Source of the DNA: Candidatus Poribacteria bacterium
GTDB taxonomy: Bacteria; Poribacteria; WGA-4E; WGA-3G
DNA length: 64,000 bases
NCBI GenBank assembly: GCA_009839745.1
Contig: VXPE01000003.1
Span: forward strand, 1 to 64,000
Direction: 5' to 3'
In this document: positions 11,782 to 48,848 of the stretch, in pieces
Layout: each line of letters opens with the position of its first letter
How positions within the stretch are numbered: the stretch's first letter is position 1
Notes under the pieces: model-generated
Seen by the model: only the letters and a program-made list of their open reading frames with translations
Told to the model about the DNA's origin: nothing
Database searches by the model: none
Position numbers and translations under genes: made by a program

Positions 11782-11834
11782 AATTAAACCTGCAATCTCG
11801 TTTGGAAGTTATGCCTGAAAACAAGGAGCGAGTT

Positions 11835-13250
11835 ATGACCAACATGCCAAGGCTTGTCGTTGAAGTCTTTGAACATGTGAACTTTCATGGACGCAAGGTT
11901 ACGCTTGTTGAATCGATCCCGAACACTGCAGAGATTGGTGCCCAAGATATCATTTCTTCCATTAAAATCTACAAGGGACCCGGGTTCAACGCGTCGCCCA
12001 ACTACAAAGCCATCTTTCATGAGCATGAGGACTACGCAGGCCGCCGGCTGGTGCTTGCTCCAGGGTTCTATCCAAACATTCATGACATCCCTTACAACTT
12101 CGGGGACGCGATTACATCTATCAGTTTCAGTCCATCAGCGCATCCAACACCGCCGGAATATGGAGCAGTCCCGGTCATCATTGAGGTGTTCCGGGACGTA
12201 GACTATACCGGTCAACGGAGTGTTATCATGCGGGATGTCAGTTCAATGTTTGATATCGGGATGAACGATACGGTTTCGTCAATCCGAATCCAGCGGGGTC
12301 CGAGTTTTCCGTTCAGCGGATGTCATATTATTTTCTACGAGCACGCTAACTTTGAAGGTCGGCGATTGAACCTAAGCCTCAGTTCACAAGAATTTCAATT
12401 GGCACTTCGGAACCTTAGAGCACATCCACATTCGCAATCATTTTCAGATATTATCTCTTCTATAAAAATTGTGCCGTTAGGTGTATTTCGTGTGCTGATT
12501 GTTGTAGGCGATAGCGCAACAGGCGAGCCAGCAATATTGGAGTCCCTCACCTCTGTTGAAGGATTAGAATTTCAGTTTACGACTGTCCACATTAATGACA
12601 ATCCTGACAATCGTGGGGATCCCAACAATGCGATCAAACTCTCAAGCATCACGCTTTCAGAGTACGACATCATCTGGTTTACTTGGAACGCAACGGGACA
12701 TAATGGTGAATATTTCGTTGAAGATGCCGATCAAGCAATTCGAGAGTTCGTTCGTAAGGGCGGAATTGTTTGGGCTTCCGCAATGGATAACAATATCACA
12801 CCCCCGGATGGTGTCCATACGACCGAGCCTGCCTGGCGTGGCGATTGGTTGCCAGTGAATCAGCACCCGATTCGCGTGGTTAATTCCAAAGATGGAAACG
12901 TCAAGATCACCGACGACGGACAAAAAACGGGTATGTTTACCTGGCCTCATAAGGTAAATGTCGACACGCTCGTAACCGACGATCATTGGGTGACAGACGA
13001 CAGGAGTTACCGAAGATTGGCTGTTAGAGAGGATAACGGAGATCCGATCAGTGTGCAGTTACAATGGGGAGATGGGTATTATGTCGCTTTTGCAGTTGAT
13101 ACCCGTGATGCCTATCGGACGACTATAGCGAAACCTCTCATTGAGAATGCGCTCTGTTACTTAGCAAATCTCGCGTGGCAGACGTCCCCCCGTCAACCGC
13201 TCAAAGGGCGATACCGGACACATCTCAGCAGCGAGACCATTTTCCGGTAG
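11835..13250 (+). CDS. Beta-gamma-crystallin repeats fused to a ThuA/GATase1-like domain
   Basis: 471-aa protein without a signal peptide. Residues about 1-215 hold four Greek-key motifs, two crystallin domains. Each opens with an F/Y-E/R-H/D-x-x-(F/Y)-x-G-R type stretch (VFEHVNFHGR, FHEHEDYAGR, VFRDVDYTGQ, FYEHANFEGR) and closes with the microbial calcium-binding motif (N/D)xx(S/T)S: QDIISS, GDAITS, NDTVSS, SDIISS. From FRVLIVVGDSATG a class I glutamine-amidotransferase-like/ThuA-like domain follows (YDIIWFTWNATGHNG, AIREFVRKGGIVWASAMDN). AAGGAG lies 6 nt before ATG 11835; an earlier ATG at 11802 has no such site. I infer Ca2+ binding; function is unknown. Confidence 0.75.
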   Translation: MTNMPRLVVEVFEHVNFHGRKVTLVESIPNTAEIGAQDIISSIKIYKGPGFNASPNYKAIFHEHEDYAGRRLVLAPGFYPNIHDIPYNFGDAITSISFSPSAHPTPPEYGAVPVIIEVFRDVDYTGQRSVIMRDVSSMFDIGMNDTVSSIRIQRGPSFPFSGCHIIFYEHANFEGRRLNLSLSSQEFQLALRNLRAHPHSQSFSDIISSIKIVPLGVFRVLIVVGDSATGEPAILESLTSVEGLEFQFTTVHINDNPDNRGDPNNAIKLSSITLSEYDIIWFTWNATGHNGEYFVEDADQAIREFVRKGGIVWASAMDNNITPPDGVHTTEPAWRGDWLPVNQHPIRVVNSKDGNVKITDDGQKTGMFTWPHKVNVDTLVTDDHWVTDDRSYRRLAVREDNGDPISVQLQWGDGYYVAFAVDTRDAYRTTIAKPLIENALCYLANLAWQTSPRQPLKGRYRTHLSSETIFR

Positions 13251-13367: not shown

Positions 13368-15668
13368 ATGCGTTTCATTGCTGTTATCGTTTTCTTAATA
13401 GCTGTTGCAGTCGCTGTTGGTTGGTTTGCATATCAAAATCTCGACCGCTTTGGACAGAACGAAGTCATACGGTGGTTGACAGCAATTCTCTTTGTATTAT
13501 TCGCGAGTTTAGCAACTTTCGCTGCTACAGTGATCCGCTATCGTATACCGAAAGCCGATGTCGCACTCGTCCGAACAGGGGGTGCAAGAGAGAAAATTCG
13601 TATCACGGGGGGTCTCTGGGTTAACACGATTATCCATGAAATCAAAGAAATCTCTCTGAATACCATGCGCATTGAGGTCATACGAGAGGGTCCAGAGGCT
13701 TTGATTACCTACGACTTTAACCGCGGTGATGTCGAAGTTGTTTTCTACCTTAAAGTTGAACCCGAAGAAACCGACATCCTACGCGCTGCACAAGCCCTTG
13801 GCGATAAATCTATGACCCCTGAGACCGTGCGCGAATTAATTGAACCGAAACTCGAGGGTGCGTTGCGAAGTGTCGCAGCCGAAAGTGATATTCAAGATCT
13901 CCTCCAGAAACGCCAAGAGTTTGCCGACAAGGTCCAAGGAGCGTGCGGTGAGGATCTGGAAATCCAGAACGGTTTAACCCTTGAAACCGTATCTATTATT
14001 CGGGTAGATCAGACCCCCGTTGAAACGCTTGATGCCGAAAACCGATTCGATGCAGTTGGTATTCGAGAAATCACCGAAATCACAGCCGAGCAGGACCGAG
14101 AAAAAGAACGGATTGTCAAAGAAAAAGAGGTCGCCATCGTTCAGATTGAGGTCGACGCTCGGATACAGAAACTCGAAGCCGAACAGCAGCAAGCATGGGC
14201 AGAATCCGATCAGCAAAAAAATATTGCTATCTATGCCGCGGAACGGCAAGCCGAGACCCTTAAATTCCAATTTGAGATGGAACAGGGCGTGCAAGAACGT
14301 GAATACGAGATGAAGCAGGAGGTCGAGCGCGCACGTATTAGACAGGAACAGGTTATCCAAGAACGCGAAATCGAGATGAACCGTGACATCGAAGTCGCTC
14401 GCGTCCAACAGGAACAGATTGTCGCCGAACGTGAAATTGAAAAGAACCTCATCGTTGAAACACAACAGATTGAGCAATCCAAAGTTGTCCAACTCGCCGA
14501 AATTGAGCAACATCTCATCGTTCAAATGCAGAGAATCGCACAGGAACAAGCGATTGCGGTTCGCGACATAGAGAAAGTATTGACAGTAGAGAAAGCCCGT
14601 ATTGCACAAGAAGAAGGGGTTATGCTACGGGATATTGCGCGCGATTTGGCAGTCCAAACCACACGTTTCAGTCAAGAACAACAGGTCCAACAGCGTGAAA
14701 TCGAGAAAAACCTCGTCGTCGAAACCGCACAAATCGATCAGGTGCGCCAAGTCGAACTCGCAGAAGTTGCCAAAATTTTGGCAGTAGAGATAGCACGCAT
14801 CGCACAAGCGCAACAGGTTGAAACCCGTGACATTGAGAAGGAACTCATCGTAGACAAAGCACGCATCGCACAAGAAGAAGGGGTTATGCTACGGGATATT
14901 GCGCGCGATTTGGCAGTCCAAACCACACGTTTCAGTCAAGAACAACAGGTCCAACAGCGTGAAATCGAGAAAAACCTCGTCGTCGAAACCGCACAGATCG
15001 ATCAGGTTCGACAGGTCTCCCTCGCAGAAATTGCCAAAATCTTGACAGTAGAACAGACCCGTATCAATCAGGAATTACAGGTTGCCTTAACCGACGAAGA
15101 CCGGAAAATTGAGGTTGCGAATAAGCAGCAGGTAACGGCACTTGCAGAGAAAGAGCAGTTAGTAGCGGAAGCTGAACGTATGGGCGCAGAAGTGGGTGTG
15201 ACGGCAACAGAACAGGTGAAAGAAGCTGAATGGCAGCGTGAGGTGGCAATCATTGGTGCCGAAGCCCAAGCACAGCCGATCGAACGTCTTGCCGATGCTG
15301 TGCTTGCCGAGGCGCGAGCGAAAGCACAAGGCGAGATGGCAGAATACGAAGCTCGAAATGTCGCTGAACAACGCGTCCTCGTCCAAGAAGCAATCTTAGA
15401 ACTCATTGATGAAGCCCCTGATATTCTTGAGGAACTCATGAAACCTGTCGAGAAAATCGACAGTATCAAGATCCTGGATATGGGTAACAACGATGGACAA
15501 GGGGGGCTCAACCGCAGCAATATGGGGCGGCTCGCAAATGCGTTGCTTGATACGGGTGCTATTTCCCCTATGCTTAAGGAACTGTTTAACTTCGCGGATG
15601 TAGACGCCCAACAGATTACAGACAAAATTGCTGAATATCTATCTGATCTCGTCAATCGTCCGAGTTAA
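13368..15668 (+). CDS. Flotillin-like SPFH-domain membrane scaffold with 22-residue repeats
   Basis: 766-aa membrane protein. Two N-terminal helices (about 1-22 and 35-58) are followed by an SPFH/Band-7 domain (about 60-240) of flotillin type, then a very long coiled coil. Residues 311-596 consist of about thirteen 22-residue repeats with consensus-like units REIEKNLVVETAQIDQ and RDIEKxLxVExARIAQEE. An 88-residue block of four repeats is duplicated almost exactly. An Ala/Glu-rich flotillin tail and a C-terminal helical region complete it. Ordinary flotillins are about 400-520 aa, so this coil is greatly expanded. Flotillins organise membrane microdomains as oligomers; the long rod may set spacing or bind partners. 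AAAGGAG precedes the ATG. Confidence 0.85.
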   Translation: MRFIAVIVFLIAVAVAVGWFAYQNLDRFGQNEVIRWLTAILFVLFASLATFAATVIRYRIPKADVALVRTGGAREKIRITGGLWVNTIIHEIKEISLNTMRIEVIREGPEALITYDFNRGDVEVVFYLKVEPEETDILRAAQALGDKSMTPETVRELIEPKLEGALRSVAAESDIQDLLQKRQEFADKVQGACGEDLEIQNGLTLETVSIIRVDQTPVETLDAENRFDAVGIREITEITAEQDREKERIVKEKEVAIVQIEVDARIQKLEAEQQQAWAESDQQKNIAIYAAERQAETLKFQFEMEQGVQEREYEMKQEVERARIRQEQVIQEREIEMNRDIEVARVQQEQIVAEREIEKNLIVETQQIEQSKVVQLAEIEQHLIVQMQRIAQEQAIAVRDIEKVLTVEKARIAQEEGVMLRDIARDLAVQTTRFSQEQQVQQREIEKNLVVETAQIDQVRQVELAEVAKILAVEIARIAQAQQVETRDIEKELIVDKARIAQEEGVMLRDIARDLAVQTTRFSQEQQVQQREIEKNLVVETAQIDQVRQVSLAEIAKILTVEQTRINQELQVALTDEDRKIEVANKQQVTALAEKEQLVAEAERMGAEVGVTATEQVKEAEWQREVAIIGAEAQAQPIERLADAVLAEARAKAQGEMAEYEARNVAEQRVLVQEAILELIDEAPDILEELMKPVEKIDSIKILDMGNNDGQGGLNRSNMGRLANALLDTGAISPMLKELFNFADVDAQQITDKIAEYLSDLVNRPS
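14604..14995 (+). repeat. Exact 128-bp internal duplication in the flotillin-like gene
   Basis: Bases 14604-14731 recur without a mismatch at 14868-14995. The offset is 264 nt, exactly 88 codons or four 22-residue units, so the frame is kept. Flanking units are similar but not identical. This is recent internal duplication or gene conversion in the repeat rod. Confidence 0.9.
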
Positions 15669-15700: not shown

Positions 15701-16996
15701 ATGCGACATCAACGCTATCAAACTTCAAACAGAAAGCCTAAACGCCAACGATGTCGAACGTGTCGCTCAGATAGTGGCAAACGGATCTGTCCGGCACTTA
15801 ACGGTATGTTAATTTGCCCGGAATGTTGTAGAGCTAAGCGTGCCAAGATCCCCGGTTGTGATGAAAACTGCCGATATTACGCGCCCCTTATTGTCTCCAG
15901 TAGAACGCATAAATCACCTGATTTCCCGTTGCATCGCTGTTTAATCAGTCGTTCTAAGGATACCGGTATGTTAATCGTAGTTGGGACCCGAAAGCGTCCA
16001 GATGGTAACCTAAAAGCGATGTTCCTCCTCCTGGATCTCTGGAAGAAAGGCATTCGAGATTGCTTTTTCGATGCCAAACTTTCTGAGAAACAGTTTGAGA
16101 AGGTCTCACAACGGATTGCGAAGAATTATAATCTCATGGAACCTACAGAACCGGATAACGATGAACCTAAAGAACTCATTCGCCTACCGAAGGATACACT
16201 CGTTATTGAAGCAGATGCCGCAATCCATCTCGATAAAGGGGTGAGACCGGTTGAGAACGCAGAAGCCTCTGGTGGAAGAGCGATTGACAGTTTGAAAGGG
16301 GCGCGGGCAATACACGAAATTTATATCCCTAAGACAGGGAAGTGGTACCTTTGGGCGCGCGTCTTCTTTGAATGGAGTAAAGATTCCTATTGGATAGGTA
16401 TGGATGATGCACTTGCAAACCCCTGGGATCGGGATGGAGGTCCAGGGGCAATTCGCATTTGTCCCGATCCGGATGATACTTCTAAATGGCACCGCTGGTT
16501 ATGGAACACCGGACCCGACAGTGTCGTAAATACCAAACAAGGCATCAACCCAGCCTTTTTCCAGATTAAACGGGCAGGCTACTACCGTCTCTGGTCTAAA
16601 GGCAGGGAAGGCGGTTCACGCTTAGACCAGATTTTGCTTACCCGTACGCGCGATTTCAACACGCAAACCGAAACAGAAGGGAACTCACTTCCCGTTAAAC
16701 ATGCACTGCACCCTTATGAGCCTGCTTCCATCGGCGAATGTCAAAAACTCATTCACCACGCTGTCCAGATCGCAACTGCTGTCAACACCGAACTCCCTTG
16801 GGAATTTAAATACTGGCTTCAGGATATCTGGGGAGACCTCACCGAATTCCCAGCAACAGAAGGCTCCCTCTATAAATGCCCCAAATGTGCAGCAGATCTG
16901 CCGCAACAGGCAGTCGATCTCATGACACAACACGCCCAATCCGATGACATCCAGTTCTATATTTTGTGCAGGAAGTGTGGAGGAGAGTTTGATTAA
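15701..16996 (+). CDS. Zinc-finger protein with an embedded CBM-like sandwich
   Basis: 431-aa protein of unknown function without a signal peptide. The N-terminus carries a Cys cluster (C18, C21, C30, C39, C42, C43, C53, C57) of the CxxC...CPAL...CPxCC...CxxxC type seen in various bacterial proteins. The middle (about 165-340) reads like a CBM6/malectin-type beta sandwich: IEADAAIHLD, ASGGRAI, GKWYLWARVFFEW, FQIKRAGYYRLW, LDQILLT. The C-terminus has a zinc ribbon, CPKC and CRKC about 30 residues apart. A sugar-binding-type fold flanked by intracellular zinc modules is unusual. It starts 32 nt after the flotillin-like gene and overlaps the next gene. Confidence 0.6.
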   Translation: MRHQRYQTSNRKPKRQRCRTCRSDSGKRICPALNGMLICPECCRAKRAKIPGCDENCRYYAPLIVSSRTHKSPDFPLHRCLISRSKDTGMLIVVGTRKRPDGNLKAMFLLLDLWKKGIRDCFFDAKLSEKQFEKVSQRIAKNYNLMEPTEPDNDEPKELIRLPKDTLVIEADAAIHLDKGVRPVENAEASGGRAIDSLKGARAIHEIYIPKTGKWYLWARVFFEWSKDSYWIGMDDALANPWDRDGGPGAIRICPDPDDTSKWHRWLWNTGPDSVVNTKQGINPAFFQIKRAGYYRLWSKGREGGSRLDQILLTRTRDFNTQTETEGNSLPVKHALHPYEPASIGECQKLIHHAVQIATAVNTELPWEFKYWLQDIWGDLTEFPATEGSLYKCPKCAADLPQQAVDLMTQHAQSDDIQFYILCRKCGGEFD

Positions 16997-42660: not shown

Positions 42661-45600
42661 TCATTCTATTACATCATTCAACGGCGGCAATCGGTGTTCG
42701 ACGCGTCGTGTGTTGTATTCACGCTGATACCGCCGATGCGCTTCATCGTTGGGGTAGTGTTCAGTATCGGGATACGGATAGCTGGACATCCCATGAAACG
42801 GTAGGGGTTCAACCGTTTGGGATGTGAGCGTATTGATGTCGCCATCTTTATCCCATCCGTCGCTGTAGAGGATAAAATCGCGCACCCATCCTGCTTTCAA
42901 TGTCGGTAGGCGTGACGCCTCAAATTCCACTGTGATTTCGTCCCCTGCATTGAGGATAACATACATGTCGTCAACTTCCTGTAATAGAGGATTAACATCG
43001 CCATAACGGGTGTAAAAACCTGCCAAGTCGCGCCATTGTGCAGCCTTTGTAACCTTTTGGTAATCAAACAGGTGCGGGGCATGTGGATTCGGACGATACA
43101 TCTCAGAAAAGCCTCGGTAGTGTAAATCCGCGCTATCTGGGTTCAGGGTTGTCACTTCCATCGGGACCGTCTGTGTGCCGACAGTGAAAAACGCTGTATC
43201 CCAGTAAATCTGCATATCGGTTTCAACTCGAACGCGTCGATCCTCCGACAGAAATTTACCCGTCACGTCAACGGTGATTGTCTTATTTTTCCCTGCGGGG
43301 AGTCCAATCATATCGATGATGGTTTTCCATTCGCCTGCCTTATCTTTCACAGCAACCGACGGGAAACTGGGGTTGATTGCTGGATTCTGGAACAGGGCAA
43401 CATTGATGCTGGTATCCGTCGGGAAGATCCATCCACCGAGGAAGAGCGTCAGCGGTGCGTCGTTTGGGACATCACCGAGATCGAGAACAACGGCGTGCGG
43501 CTCCACAACGCCTTGATAGGGACCGGGTGTATGTTCAACGGCATAGCGGTAATCAAACGCTTTTAAAGCATCGGACACATCTTTACCGTTATGATCAACA
43601 GCGGATTTCGGGAACCGTTTTTCTGCGACACCATAGATTTTGAACGCTGCAAACGGGGGCGGCGTATACTGTTCATTCACAAAAATATCAGTATCTTTTG
43701 GATGATCAACCGCAATCAGTTTGACTTCATCAAAATAGGCGGTTTCCCACAACTCCTCCGTAATCTGAATCGAATATTTGCCGGACTTCGGTTGCATTTG
43801 CGCTCCCGATATTTTCACGAAATCCTTTGTTTCATCCGGGGCGACGAATCCCATGGATGTGACGAGTCCCAACGGCGCACGCCAGAGCAAGTCTGTGATG
43901 AATTGATACGCTTCACCGTCGTATACATATAGGAATGGACAAGAGCCTTTTAGGACCTGTTTTTCCAAAATTCGCTGTCTCACGTGTGGTTTGACGACGT
44001 TTTGTGGAACACCGTTTGTCCAAACGACGCGAACGACATCTGCAGCCTCATAAGCCCCTAACCCGAAATGGGATACCTGTCCGGTTACATATTGTAGTTG
44101 ATACAGATCCCCGACCTTCACCTCCAGTTTCGAGCCGATGCCGTCTCTATTCACTTTGTTGTTTCCTGCAGTAATACCTTCCAACTGCACCTGTATCCAG
44201 TTGTTTTGATTGCCACCGTCGTTTTGCAATGCGCGCAGTTGTCCCTCGGTATTGATGAAAAAGAGATCGAGATCGCCATCATTGTCATAATCACCCACAG
44301 TCCCAGCCCTTGCGTCTTGGAGAAGTGCTCCTTCGGTGGGGGTGATCGATCCGATCAATGGATAGGGTTCATTAAACGCACCACCGCCATCGTTCCGAAA
44401 CAGGAACATTCCGTCTTGCCCACTCACCCAAATATCAACTTCCCCATCGTTATCGTAATCCAAATTTTTCAATAAATCAACCGGCAAGTCAAGGGCACTC
44501 GCCTCTAAATTCGGTGCGTCGACAAAACTCGCATCCCCTCTATTACGATAGAGATGGAGGCGCTCTGCTGTCGCCAAAAAGAGGTCAAAGGTGCCATCGT
44601 TGTCGTAATCGCCAGTGGCAGCGGCAGTATAACGCACATCCTGTGGGATTCCTGTTTCACTGGAAATCGCTCGGAGTTTTCCTTGGCGCAGGTTATCAAA
44701 AAGTGTGCATCCGGTTTCTTCATGTATCACAAAAATATCTATATCCCCGTCGTCATCAAAATCAGCAGCGTGTGCCTCAATAGGGGCACCTTGCGCGCCA
44801 AAAGCGTCGCTCGCCTCAGTTGCTATAAAGGTCTGTTCACTCACATCGGTAAACGTTAAATTTCCATTATTGTCTTTGTGATTGTGATTCCGATACATCG
44901 TGAGACTGGTGCGTCCCGACAAAAGGTCGAGATCCCCATCATGGTCAAAATCAACAGGCAGCAGCAGACCTGTTTCGTATACCGACTTCTGCAGTTGAAC
45001 GAGGGGTGATGTCCCCCAATTTCCATCTGCATCCATGTGAAGGGACGTTATTCCTTCGCGGGTTTGGAGTAAAAATTCCTGTATCCCATCTTTATCCAGA
45101 TCTACCAACGCGACGGCGTGCGGTAGTAAAGCCTGCTGTTCCAGTATCTCTTGAACCTCTCGGACAGGGATAAACTGCTCACCCGTATTTTGAAAGAGCA
45201 TCCCCGTGAGTGTTGTATAGAGATCCAAATCGCCATCGCCATCGTAGTCGCTCAGCAAAACATCTACGAAACGCAAAGGCACCCCTTCGACGTTACCGAG
45301 TCCAAGTTCTTCGGTAACATCCACAAAATCTACTGTAATCGGGGTTCTCTTTTTGGCTGTAATCCGAGTCTTGAATCCTGGACGAAACATTTCTATGGGA
45401 TGTCCGAGGATGTCGGTAACCAGTTCACCGATGCCCTGTTGATAACGTGGGCTCGCCCGTTGCACATTCTCAAAAATTCGGATGTTTCGAGTAGCGATTT
45501 TCAGGTCGCCTTGTTGTATCGCAGTTATCCCTTGTGTGAGATATTTCAGTTTTTCTGGGTCAATATCGCCTAAAAGGAGCATCAACTCTTGACAAAGATT

Positions 45601-46167
45601 TTCGGCATCTTCAAGTTTCTCCTGTGCCAAAAGTCCTTGTGTCAATTTCAACAGCACAACGATATTTACCGGAGAACGTGCGTGGAGTTCCTGCAGATGT
45701 CGAACTGCTTCCTGCTGCGCTTCCGGATCGTTGCGTTGTGCCAGATAATGGCGGATCAGTTTATAGCGAAACTCCAACTCATCGGGTGCCAACCGCACGG
45801 CTTCCTTCATCGCCTTCACGGCTAATTCGCTCTGTCCTTGGAGTTGATAGACTTCGGACAAGATGAAGTGTAATTGACTGTCCATCGGTGCGACAGCGAT
45901 TCCACGTTTGACCCATTCTTCAGCGGTATCTGCCTGCTGTAGACGTAGGTATGCGACAGCGAGGTTGCCGTAACCGATCGCTTCATCGGGAAGCAGTTTA
46001 ATAAGTGCCGTAAACGCCTCGACTGCTTTCGAGGGCTGCGATTCTTCGAGATACGCCAACCCTAAATTCTGGTGTCGGATCGCATCCTCGATGATTTGCG
46101 TGCTTTTCATCTCTTGGGCATTTACCGTCCAAACGGCAAAAAACCCTATCAAGAGCAGTATATACAT
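42661..46167 (-). CDS. Large exported TPR / FG-GAP (VCBS) / ASPIC-UnbV protein
   Basis: 1168-aa secreted protein. A signal peptide (YILLLIGFFAVWTVNA) is followed by TPR repeats (about 20-240). Then comes a beta-propeller of FG-GAP/VCBS repeats with Ca-binding DxDxDGDxD loops (DYDGDGDLDLY, DFDHDGDLDLL, DYDNDGTFDLF, DYDNDGDLDLF). An ASPIC/UnbV-like domain (GIGSKLEVKVGDLYQ, SHFGLGAYEAADVVRVVW) and a long beta-rich C-terminus complete it. CRTAC1-type proteins of this sort are usually surface-exposed with unknown roles. I chose ATG 46167; the frame extends to 46296, but only through repeat sequence. Confidence 0.85.
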   Translation of the reverse strand: MYILLLIGFFAVWTVNAQEMKSTQIIEDAIRHQNLGLAYLEESQPSKAVEAFTALIKLLPDEAIGYGNLAVAYLRLQQADTAEEWVKRGIAVAPMDSQLHFILSEVYQLQGQSELAVKAMKEAVRLAPDELEFRYKLIRHYLAQRNDPEAQQEAVRHLQELHARSPVNIVVLLKLTQGLLAQEKLEDAENLCQELMLLLGDIDPEKLKYLTQGITAIQQGDLKIATRNIRIFENVQRASPRYQQGIGELVTDILGHPIEMFRPGFKTRITAKKRTPITVDFVDVTEELGLGNVEGVPLRFVDVLLSDYDGDGDLDLYTTLTGMLFQNTGEQFIPVREVQEILEQQALLPHAVALVDLDKDGIQEFLLQTREGITSLHMDADGNWGTSPLVQLQKSVYETGLLLPVDFDHDGDLDLLSGRTSLTMYRNHNHKDNNGNLTFTDVSEQTFIATEASDAFGAQGAPIEAHAADFDDDGDIDIFVIHEETGCTLFDNLRQGKLRAISSETGIPQDVRYTAAATGDYDNDGTFDLFLATAERLHLYRNRGDASFVDAPNLEASALDLPVDLLKNLDYDNDGEVDIWVSGQDGMFLFRNDGGGAFNEPYPLIGSITPTEGALLQDARAGTVGDYDNDGDLDLFFINTEGQLRALQNDGGNQNNWIQVQLEGITAGNNKVNRDGIGSKLEVKVGDLYQLQYVTGQVSHFGLGAYEAADVVRVVWTNGVPQNVVKPHVRQRILEKQVLKGSCPFLYVYDGEAYQFITDLLWRAPLGLVTSMGFVAPDETKDFVKISGAQMQPKSGKYSIQITEELWETAYFDEVKLIAVDHPKDTDIFVNEQYTPPPFAAFKIYGVAEKRFPKSAVDHNGKDVSDALKAFDYRYAVEHTPGPYQGVVEPHAVVLDLGDVPNDAPLTLFLGGWIFPTDTSINVALFQNPAINPSFPSVAVKDKAGEWKTIIDMIGLPAGKNKTITVDVTGKFLSEDRRVRVETDMQIYWDTAFFTVGTQTVPMEVTTLNPDSADLHYRGFSEMYRPNPHAPHLFDYQKVTKAAQWRDLAGFYTRYGDVNPLLQEVDDMYVILNAGDEITVEFEASRLPTLKAGWVRDFILYSDGWDKDGDINTLTSQTVEPLPFHGMSSYPYPDTEHYPNDEAHRRYQREYNTRRVEHRLPPLNDVIE

Positions 46168-46183
46168 TGTGTATTTTCTTATT

Positions 46184-46440
46184 TTAATTTTTCCTTGCGG
46201 TTCGGTCAGGAACGTTAGAACGTTTCCGTCCCTTTGCGTATATCCGCCTGCGCCGTTGTTGCAGGCTACATTTTCGTTTGTATCCTTAAATATCATTTCT
46301 TAATTTTTCCTTGCGGTTCGGTCAGGAACGTTAGAACGTTTCCGTCCCTTTGCGTATATCCGCCTGCGCCGTTGTTGCAGGCTACATTTTCGTTTGTATC
46401 CTTAAATATCATTTCTTAACTTTTCCTTGCGGTTCGGTCA
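46184..46440. repeat. 116-bp tandem repeat, two full copies and a partial third
   Basis: 46184-46299 and 46300-46415 are identical; a third copy starts at 46416 and diverges after about 25 nt (46440), though later parts (TTTCAGGCTACAT) still resemble it. Each unit contains GGAACGTT-AG-AACGTTTCC and GCCTGC...GCAGGC, both able to form hairpins. It lies directly upstream of the giant TPR/FG-GAP gene (minus strand) and so forms its leader or promoter zone. Confidence 0.9.
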
Positions 46441-46525
46441 AGGGGATTGAAAAAATAAATAACCTCTCCGTAGACCCGCCTTCCATTACGTTTCAGGCTA
46501 CATCTTTGTTTGTATTTTTTCATTT

Positions 46526-47403: not shown

Positions 47404-48111
47404 TCACCATTCTTGGGGCGTATATGTGGCGTGTAGGCTTGCGACACCTGATAGCTTTGTCTCCAGTGTTTTGAGAGAGATAAATAATTTCATCAATTGT
47501 TGTTCTTCCTTCATCCGGACGTTATACCACTTGAGAAGCGACTGATCTGTGGCGTGGAGCCTTCGGAAACAGTCGTCGCGTTCCCCTGGCAGTAGGGCTT
47601 CTGCGTATTCCGTCTGGTAATGGCTATGCTGTTCGTGTAGGTGGTCGATGCGGGTATCAATTTTTTGTAGACGCTTGGTCTGTGCCTCAACACGGGTGAG
47701 GAGTGTATCCTTCAACTTGCTGTCTATCCGGTCATACGTATGTCCGAGTGTCTGACGGACGTGTTCTTGGTGGAGATTGTAAAGGGTCTTATACCGGGAA
47801 TGTGCGAAGACAGCACTGGTGGGGTCACAGGTTCGGAGTCGATCGGAGAGTCTTTTTCTGAAAGTATCGTCTGCGTCGGCCTGCTCTTGCAGCTTGGGGA
47901 ACGTCTCAATCAGTATGAGGACGACATCCCCCCGTGCGAAACCTCTGGCAAACAAACTGATGGCAAATTCGATCTCATCGGGTGAGAGATGGATCGGTGG
48001 CAAGGCTGCGATTTCTCGGACCTCTTCAAGTTGCATGTCGTCATAAACAATTGGTTTCTCTTCAACGGCGCGTGGCAACTGTGGGTTTTGGTTCTGGTGT
48101 TTTTTGCTCAT
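47404..48111 (-). CDS. Unknown protein with possible HTH and coiled coil
   Basis: 235-aa soluble protein that I do not recognise. An N-terminal helical part (HLSPDEIEFAISLFARGFARGDVVLILIETFP) might be a helix-turn-helix. The rest is long, charged helices (LTRVEAQTKRLQKIDTRIDHLHEQH) consistent with a coiled coil. AAGGAG stands 7 nt before the ATG and lies inside a 45-bp tandem duplication. Flanking repeats and the neighbouring restriction genes suggest an accessory, possibly phage-derived or defence-linked gene; this is inference. Confidence 0.55.
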   Translation of the reverse strand: MSKKHQNQNPQLPRAVEEKPIVYDDMQLEEVREIAALPPIHLSPDEIEFAISLFARGFARGDVVLILIETFPKLQEQADADDTFRKRLSDRLRTCDPTSAVFAHSRYKTLYNLHQEHVRQTLGHTYDRIDSKLKDTLLTRVEAQTKRLQKIDTRIDHLHEQHSHYQTEYAEALLPGERDDCFRRLHATDQSLLKWYNVRMKEEQQLMKLFISLKTLETKLSGVASLHATYTPQEW

Positions 48112-48114
48112 TTT

Positions 48115-48204
48115 TTAGCTCCTTTAGCGAAATGCTGCGAATTACAGCGAAAAATATCGTTAGCTCCTTTAGCGAAATGCTGCGAATTACAGCGAAAAAT
48201 ATCG
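48115..48204. repeat. 45-bp tandem duplication carrying a ribosome-binding site
   Basis: 48115-48159 and 48160-48204 are identical. On the minus strand each copy contains AAAGGAGCTAA, so the ribosome site of the 235-aa gene exists twice, but only the proximal one is followed by ATG at working distance. Each copy also contains CGCTGTAATTCGCAGC, able to fold. Confidence 0.85.
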
Positions 48205-48848
48205 TCTCCTCGATTTTTGTAGGAGGATCGGTGATCTATAGAAATCACAATTCAGCGTGTAAAAAAGCAGGTAACGTATGCGTCTAACTCTCAACGCGTT
48301 GGTTACCAGATGATGCGTCTGCCTCGTGAGATTCTCACAGAGTTGTCGCGTCAAATATAGCACAAGCACAGGAGACCAACGGTTTCCTATGCTACAATTG
48401 TCCAAAGTTCACGAGTGGTACTAAATAACGATTTGTAAAATATTAATTCACATAAGAATAACGTTTTGTCCGCAATTCTCATATATGGATATGATTTTAG
48501 TCCCGTAGGGTTTATTTGCTTGGGTATTTCTTCAATATGTTTATAGAAATGCGTCATTAACACCTCTTTTTAGTCCGGTAGGGACGGTATGTTTATGGGA
48601 TAATATCAATATCTGTGAAAATAATAAAAACAATGAGTTAATTGGCACAAGCCGTAAAACTTAGTAATAATATTGTATCCAAAAACATATTTTTAGTCAA
48701 CATAAAAATAGATATTCTACAGAATGATTCAGTCTTAGAAATTTATCAGATTTTTTGGAATGTGAAGGTTGTTTTCGCAGGATCGGGGTTCCTAACATTC
48801 GGCGAAAAAATGGAAAACTAAAGAGCTCTCCCTAATTTTTCGTATCTA
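48205..48848. other. AT-rich gene-free stretch with two short palindromes
   Basis: About 640 nt without a supportable gene. It holds two members of the triloop palindrome family: TCCC-GTA-GGG near 48498-48508 and GTCC-GGTAG-GGAC (48574-48586), the latter followed by TATGTTTATGG. Elsewhere I see only AT-rich sequence. Confidence 0.55.

Follow-up and report, generated by a model that had tools for sequence, protein, structure and literature searches.

The window analysed here, 64,000 nucleotides from a sponge-associated Candidatus Poribacteria, carries on its forward strand an open reading frame (13368-15668) that encodes a 766-residue flotillin/SPFH2 protein. The gene, its parts and its neighbours are as follows:

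11802-13250, + strand: upstream neighbour with two beta/gamma-crystallin stretches (Pfam), beside the flotillin gene in 54 of 55 loci
13368-15668, + strand: giant SPFH2/flotillin gene (open reading frame; Pfam Band_7 and Flot), with a match in 58 of 59 family genomes
13371-13544, + strand: two N-terminal hydrophobic helices, residues 2-26 and 31-59, probable membrane anchor (sequence; AlphaFold helices of low confidence)
13545-14099, + strand: SPFH/Band_7 domain, residues 60-244 (Pfam PF01145; identity to E. coli YqiK)
14085-15182, + strand: predicted single wall helix, residues 240-605, 366 residues, about 55 nm (AlphaFold, low confidence)
14298-14561, + strand: block I, units 1-4, residues 311-398, diverged (profile scan)
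14562-14825, + strand: block II, units 5-8, residues 399-486 (profile scan)
14604-14731, + strand: 128-nt tract, block II copy (exact run at 264-nt offset)
14826-15089, + strand: block III, units 9-12, residues 487-574 (profile scan)
14868-14995, + strand: 128-nt tract, block III copy, identical to that of block II and the likelier conversion recipient (exact run; cross-genome differences)
15090-15155, + strand: degenerate thirteenth unit, residues 575-596, missed by the unit profile
15204-15413, + strand: predicted second helix past a break, residues 613-682, placed as the flotillin cap helix (AlphaFold, low confidence; analogy with PMC11260169)
15258-15590, + strand: Flot C-terminal domain, residues 631-741 (Pfam PF15975)
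15701-16996, + strand: downstream neighbour, 431 residues, directly after the flotillin gene and present in 52 of 55 loci

The flotillin-like identity given to this protein in the original prediction is well founded: (i), the Band_7 profile (PF01145) matches with an E-value of 3.4e-15 (57 bits, cut-off 23.6); (ii), the SPFH domain lies C-terminal to two hydrophobic N-terminal helices, the anchor arrangement of flotillin/SPFH2 proteins; and (iii), the Flot profile (PF15975) matches at 4.5e-18 (66 bits, cut-off 27). E. coli YqiK is 35% identical to it across residues 31-395. The protein is akin to FloT yet is not FloT, the NCBIfam equivalog NF058507 giving 38 bits against a curated cut-off of 700. 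Its expanded coiled coil places it with the giant SPFH2 proteins, its 766 residues being slightly below the range of about 800-1000 quoted for them; orthologs measure 678-948 residues within the family, and 1223 and 1304 residues in another family of the class. A phmmer search of the PDB returned a weak match to human flotillin-1 only (6e-4), a PDB search with the alignment profile returned none at 1e-3, and PHROGs gave no match. The same genome encodes a second flotillin of 614 residues with three recognisable units (contig C103). The 431-residue downstream protein has no match in Pfam or NCBIfam. The YqiJ-YqiK (NfeD2-SPFH2) operon arrangement is not found: no NfeD/YqiJ partner adjoins the flotillin gene, YqiJ_OB has no match anywhere in the genome, and NfeD occurs on contig C70 only.

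Thirteen 22-residue repeats had been proposed at residues 311-596, and twelve of them stand. These clear units, each composed of two hendecads, fill residues 311-574 and score 48-58 bits with a 22-position profile (99th percentile of maxima in region shuffles, 19.5); because the profile was built from the same twelve units, these scores chiefly show the register, and units of other genomes also match it. The claimed thirteenth unit (residues 575-596, TDEDRKIEVANKQQVTALAEKE) is degenerate and scores below 8. The description of the units as hendecad pairs in tandem agrees with a hydrophobic pattern that is that of hendecads and not of heptads. A higher order is evident as well: the units form three 88-residue blocks of four, blocks II and III being near-duplicates and block I having diverged from both (mean DNA identity 0.57-0.58, 42 genomes). 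The autocorrelation of the protein (residues 245-596) peaks at 88, 44, 22 and 66 residues, and TRF finds a period of 264 nt (1.9 copies, 88% matches, 14586-15084). A perfect repeat of 128 nt at a 264-nt offset had been reported, and we recovered exactly this run as the longest at that offset (14604-14731 versus 14868-14995); the longest exact runs at offsets of 66, 132 and 198 nt are 17, 9 and 9 nt.

Tandem repeats also occur elsewhere in the window. A 116-bp repeat (46184-46515; 2.2 copies at 99%, about 2.9 counting a diverged third) overlaps the start region of a 1211-residue open reading frame on the reverse strand (42661-46296), whose true start may lie further in because 116 is not divisible by three. 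A 45-bp sequence is perfectly duplicated in direct tandem (48115-48205) just upstream of a 235-residue open reading frame (47404-48111, reverse strand).

Comparison of one genome per species shows that array length varies between species, almost only by 88-residue steps. Among 54 intact orthologs, twelve units are present in 42, eight in seven, sixteen in three and twenty in one, while L061 has twelve units minus 11 residues, a loss of one hendecad; exact multiples of four units (8, 12, 16, 20) are thus found in 53 of the 54. Three families of the order share the twelve-unit form: f1, f3 (L061, L065) and f4 (L066, L099 = G083), L098 being the same contig as L066 and counted once. Another family of the same class holds 32 units in L089 and about 36 in L091, whose first unit is below threshold. 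The repeat number therefore does differ among related genomes, as had been anticipated, from 8 to about 36 units. A gene tree from the non-array part of the protein requires at least eight changes of array length, and if 22-residue steps were equally likely the chance that eight changes would all be multiples of four is, as a rough figure, about (1/4)^8.

Could the exact duplication be a false repeat, produced in the assembly of a metagenome-derived genome? This draft genome consists of 141 contigs, and three relatives (L076, L077, L100) have N gaps within this very array. However, twelve units are also found in orthologs of 84-98% identity, including six genomes of one to three contigs (G003, G054-G058; five within the genus and one of a sister genus), and blocks II and III differ beyond the 128-nt tract, so that we consider an artefact highly improbable. 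Length variation is likewise not purely an assembly effect, because genomes of one to a few contigs carry twelve units, eight (L085; G021) or twenty (L067; G002), and single draft genomes with eight units may be collapsed repeats. The arrays of L076, L077 and L100 were not taken to carry true frameshifts: the N gaps lie at those places and these loci consequently give no evidence of broken genes. In L080 (1988-4232) the flotillin array spans two frames without an N run, which is due to a genuine frameshift or to misassembly.

The near identity of the blocks had been ascribed to a recent, frame-preserving expansion. The expansion did preserve the frame, but it was not recent: twelve units (in one case minus 11 residues) are present in 43 of the 54 intact orthologs and are common to three families, which rules out a recent local expansion. 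Judged by these sequence comparisons, the array is old and its exact identity alone is young. The near identity instead points to homogenisation within the gene. Simple divergence after an old duplication would leave blocks II and III as similar within a genome as between genomes, whereas DNA identity is 0.79 within the same genome and 0.69 across genomes, the within-genome value being the greater one in 41 of the 42 genomes (Wilcoxon p 7e-13, the genomes not being independent). The same contrast is seen at third codon positions (0.63 versus 0.46) and in the median longest exact run (53.5 versus 17 nt). The excess peaks in hendecads 2-4, and there is none in hendecad 8, which adjoins unique downstream sequence. 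In the sister genome L034, whose protein is 98% identical, the longest run is only 28 nt. The 128-nt tract was likely, though not certainly, copied from block II into block III, because it is nearer to block II than to block III in L073 (8 versus 18 differences), L037 (13 versus 33) and L006 (17 versus 24) but not in L035, L036 and L038.

The composition of the units bears on how the array may pack. Over 639 units, large hydrophobic residues occupy positions 3, 9, 14 and 20 in 98-100% of cases and position 7 in 86%. An 11-residue wheel groups them into two seams, one near 65 degrees and one near 196-229 degrees (about 130-165 degrees apart), with V9/V20 on one face and I3/I14 plus L7 on the other. 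Hydrophobic power is found at 2.75, 5.5, 2.2 and 3.67 residues; the proposed check for 11-residue periodicity thus revealed hendecad periods (3.67, 5.5, 2.75), and the 3.5-residue heptad period of classical coiled coils has no power in the array (p about 0.7). The single-chain AlphaFold model, which draws the array within one continuous helix, is weak (mean pLDDT 55, pTM 0.21). With a rise of 0.15 nm per residue in an alpha-helix, the computed helix length is about 42 nm for 8 units, 55 nm for 12, 81 nm for 20 and 134 nm for 36.

The original prediction had interpreted the array as a rod. A flotillin-like anchor bearing a free two- or few-stranded hendecad coiled coil, acting as a tether or spacer off the membrane and forming no closed cage wall, would account for the long continuous predicted helix with its hendecad phase, and tether-like proteins often differ in repeat number. 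A two-stranded rod, however, needs a single seam where two are present, and the SPFH and Flot domains, one at each end, belong to cage-forming proteins (PMC11260169). We thus hold this architecture to be unlikely and the rod reading probably wrong: the two-seam pattern is better suited to one stave of a helical barrel, the role that we infer for the array.

We propose, with a probability of roughly 60%, that the protein is a giant SPFH2 (YqiK-like) flotillin whose array is a cage-wall helix, setting the height of the cage in 88-residue blocks of about 13 nm and homogenised by recombination. Cage assembly and function are both inferred here. The proteins would assemble side by side into a flotillin-type cage on the cytoplasmic membrane face, with the array as the wall helix; each hydrophobic seam would pack against one neighbouring stave, and the hendecad phase would produce a near-straight, right-handed packing, as in human flotillin. 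Array length would set the height of the wall, each 88-residue block contributing about 13 nm of helix. Homologous recombination at the 264-nt offset would add or remove whole blocks. Because recombination needs DNA identity, which is present solely at this offset, changes would occur almost only by 88-residue blocks, steps that maintain reading frame as well as helical phase. The same recombination, acting as gene conversion, would keep blocks II and III alike within each genome.

A purely mutational origin of the quantised length seems fairly unlikely. Any in-frame block would then serve, neither length nor height would have a function and the twelve units would merely be inherited. Length changes do recur on the tree, and long DNA identity (128 nt) at the 264-nt offset alone, against 9-17 nt at the other offsets, would yield 88-residue steps by recombination without further cause. 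Nevertheless, twelve units are kept in most lineages of three families despite recombinogenic repeats, and a distant protein from Yoonia (see below) shares the 44- and 88-residue autocorrelation, which hints at a structural reason. If the array is a cage wall, the fact that most lineages stay at twelve units despite recombination suggests that selection maintains one particular wall length. It is tempting, if quite speculative, to view the 88-residue block itself as the selected quantum, a molecular ruler for cage height or for an inter-membrane gap in steps of about 13 nm. Should this be true, the helix would extend from about 40 nm (8 units) to more than 130 nm (about 36 units), far past the SPFH walls of 44-189 residues compared in the flotillin structure paper (PMC11260169).

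Our literature search, which covered few subscription journals, found no papers joining hendecads with SPFH or flotillin proteins, or Poribacteria with flotillin. The array had been considered peculiar with respect to ordinary flotillins; as a class it is not, since prokaryotic giant SPFH2 (SPFH2b) flotillins of about 800-1000 residues whose coiled coil is strongly expanded were already noted in 2009 (Hinderhofer et al. 2009, PMC2636767) and a comparable array exists in an alphaproteobacterium. The window protein shares this expanded coiled coil; the consulted text of that paper describes length rather than 22-residue units, 88-residue quanta or homogenisation; the NfeD2 partners usual with giant SPFH2 proteins according to the same text are absent beside the window gene. 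E. coli YqiK (SPFH2) resembles the window protein in its membrane anchor, SPFH domain, long helix and Flot domain, but it is 553 residues long without a clear 22-residue array and sits with YqiJ, whose OB domain is unmatched in the genome of the window.

The human flotillin-1/2 cage likewise combines an SPFH domain, a long non-heptad wall helix and then a cap helix (PMC11260169), features that are predicted in the window protein. In the human wall, helices of 186 residues without heptads stand side by side as a single-layer, right-handed barrel; the helix predicted here has 366 residues. SPFH cage size is believed to vary with the length of the wall helix (PMC11260169). Our periodicity test detected no 5.5-residue hydrophobic alternation in the human flotillin-1 wall, and the packing of the two proteins therefore need not match. 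The comparable alphaproteobacterial array is that of the 1129-residue plasmid flotillin of the alphaproteobacterium Yoonia sp. SS1-5 (NZ_CP151764.1, L116 554-3943), which has SPFH and Flot domains in the same order and a hendecad array with autocorrelation at 44 and 88 residues. Its unit sequence differs from that of the window array (about 30% identity), and the Yoonia array may have expanded independently, possibly by convergence. What seems new, then, is the resolved 22-residue unit, the 88-residue quantisation across the sampled families of the phylum, the span of array lengths (8 to about 36 units) and the concerted evolution of the blocks, a clean example of this process within a single bacterial gene. 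Natural variants of one protein whose predicted wall differs by whole blocks allow a direct test of how helix length relates to cage height and function.
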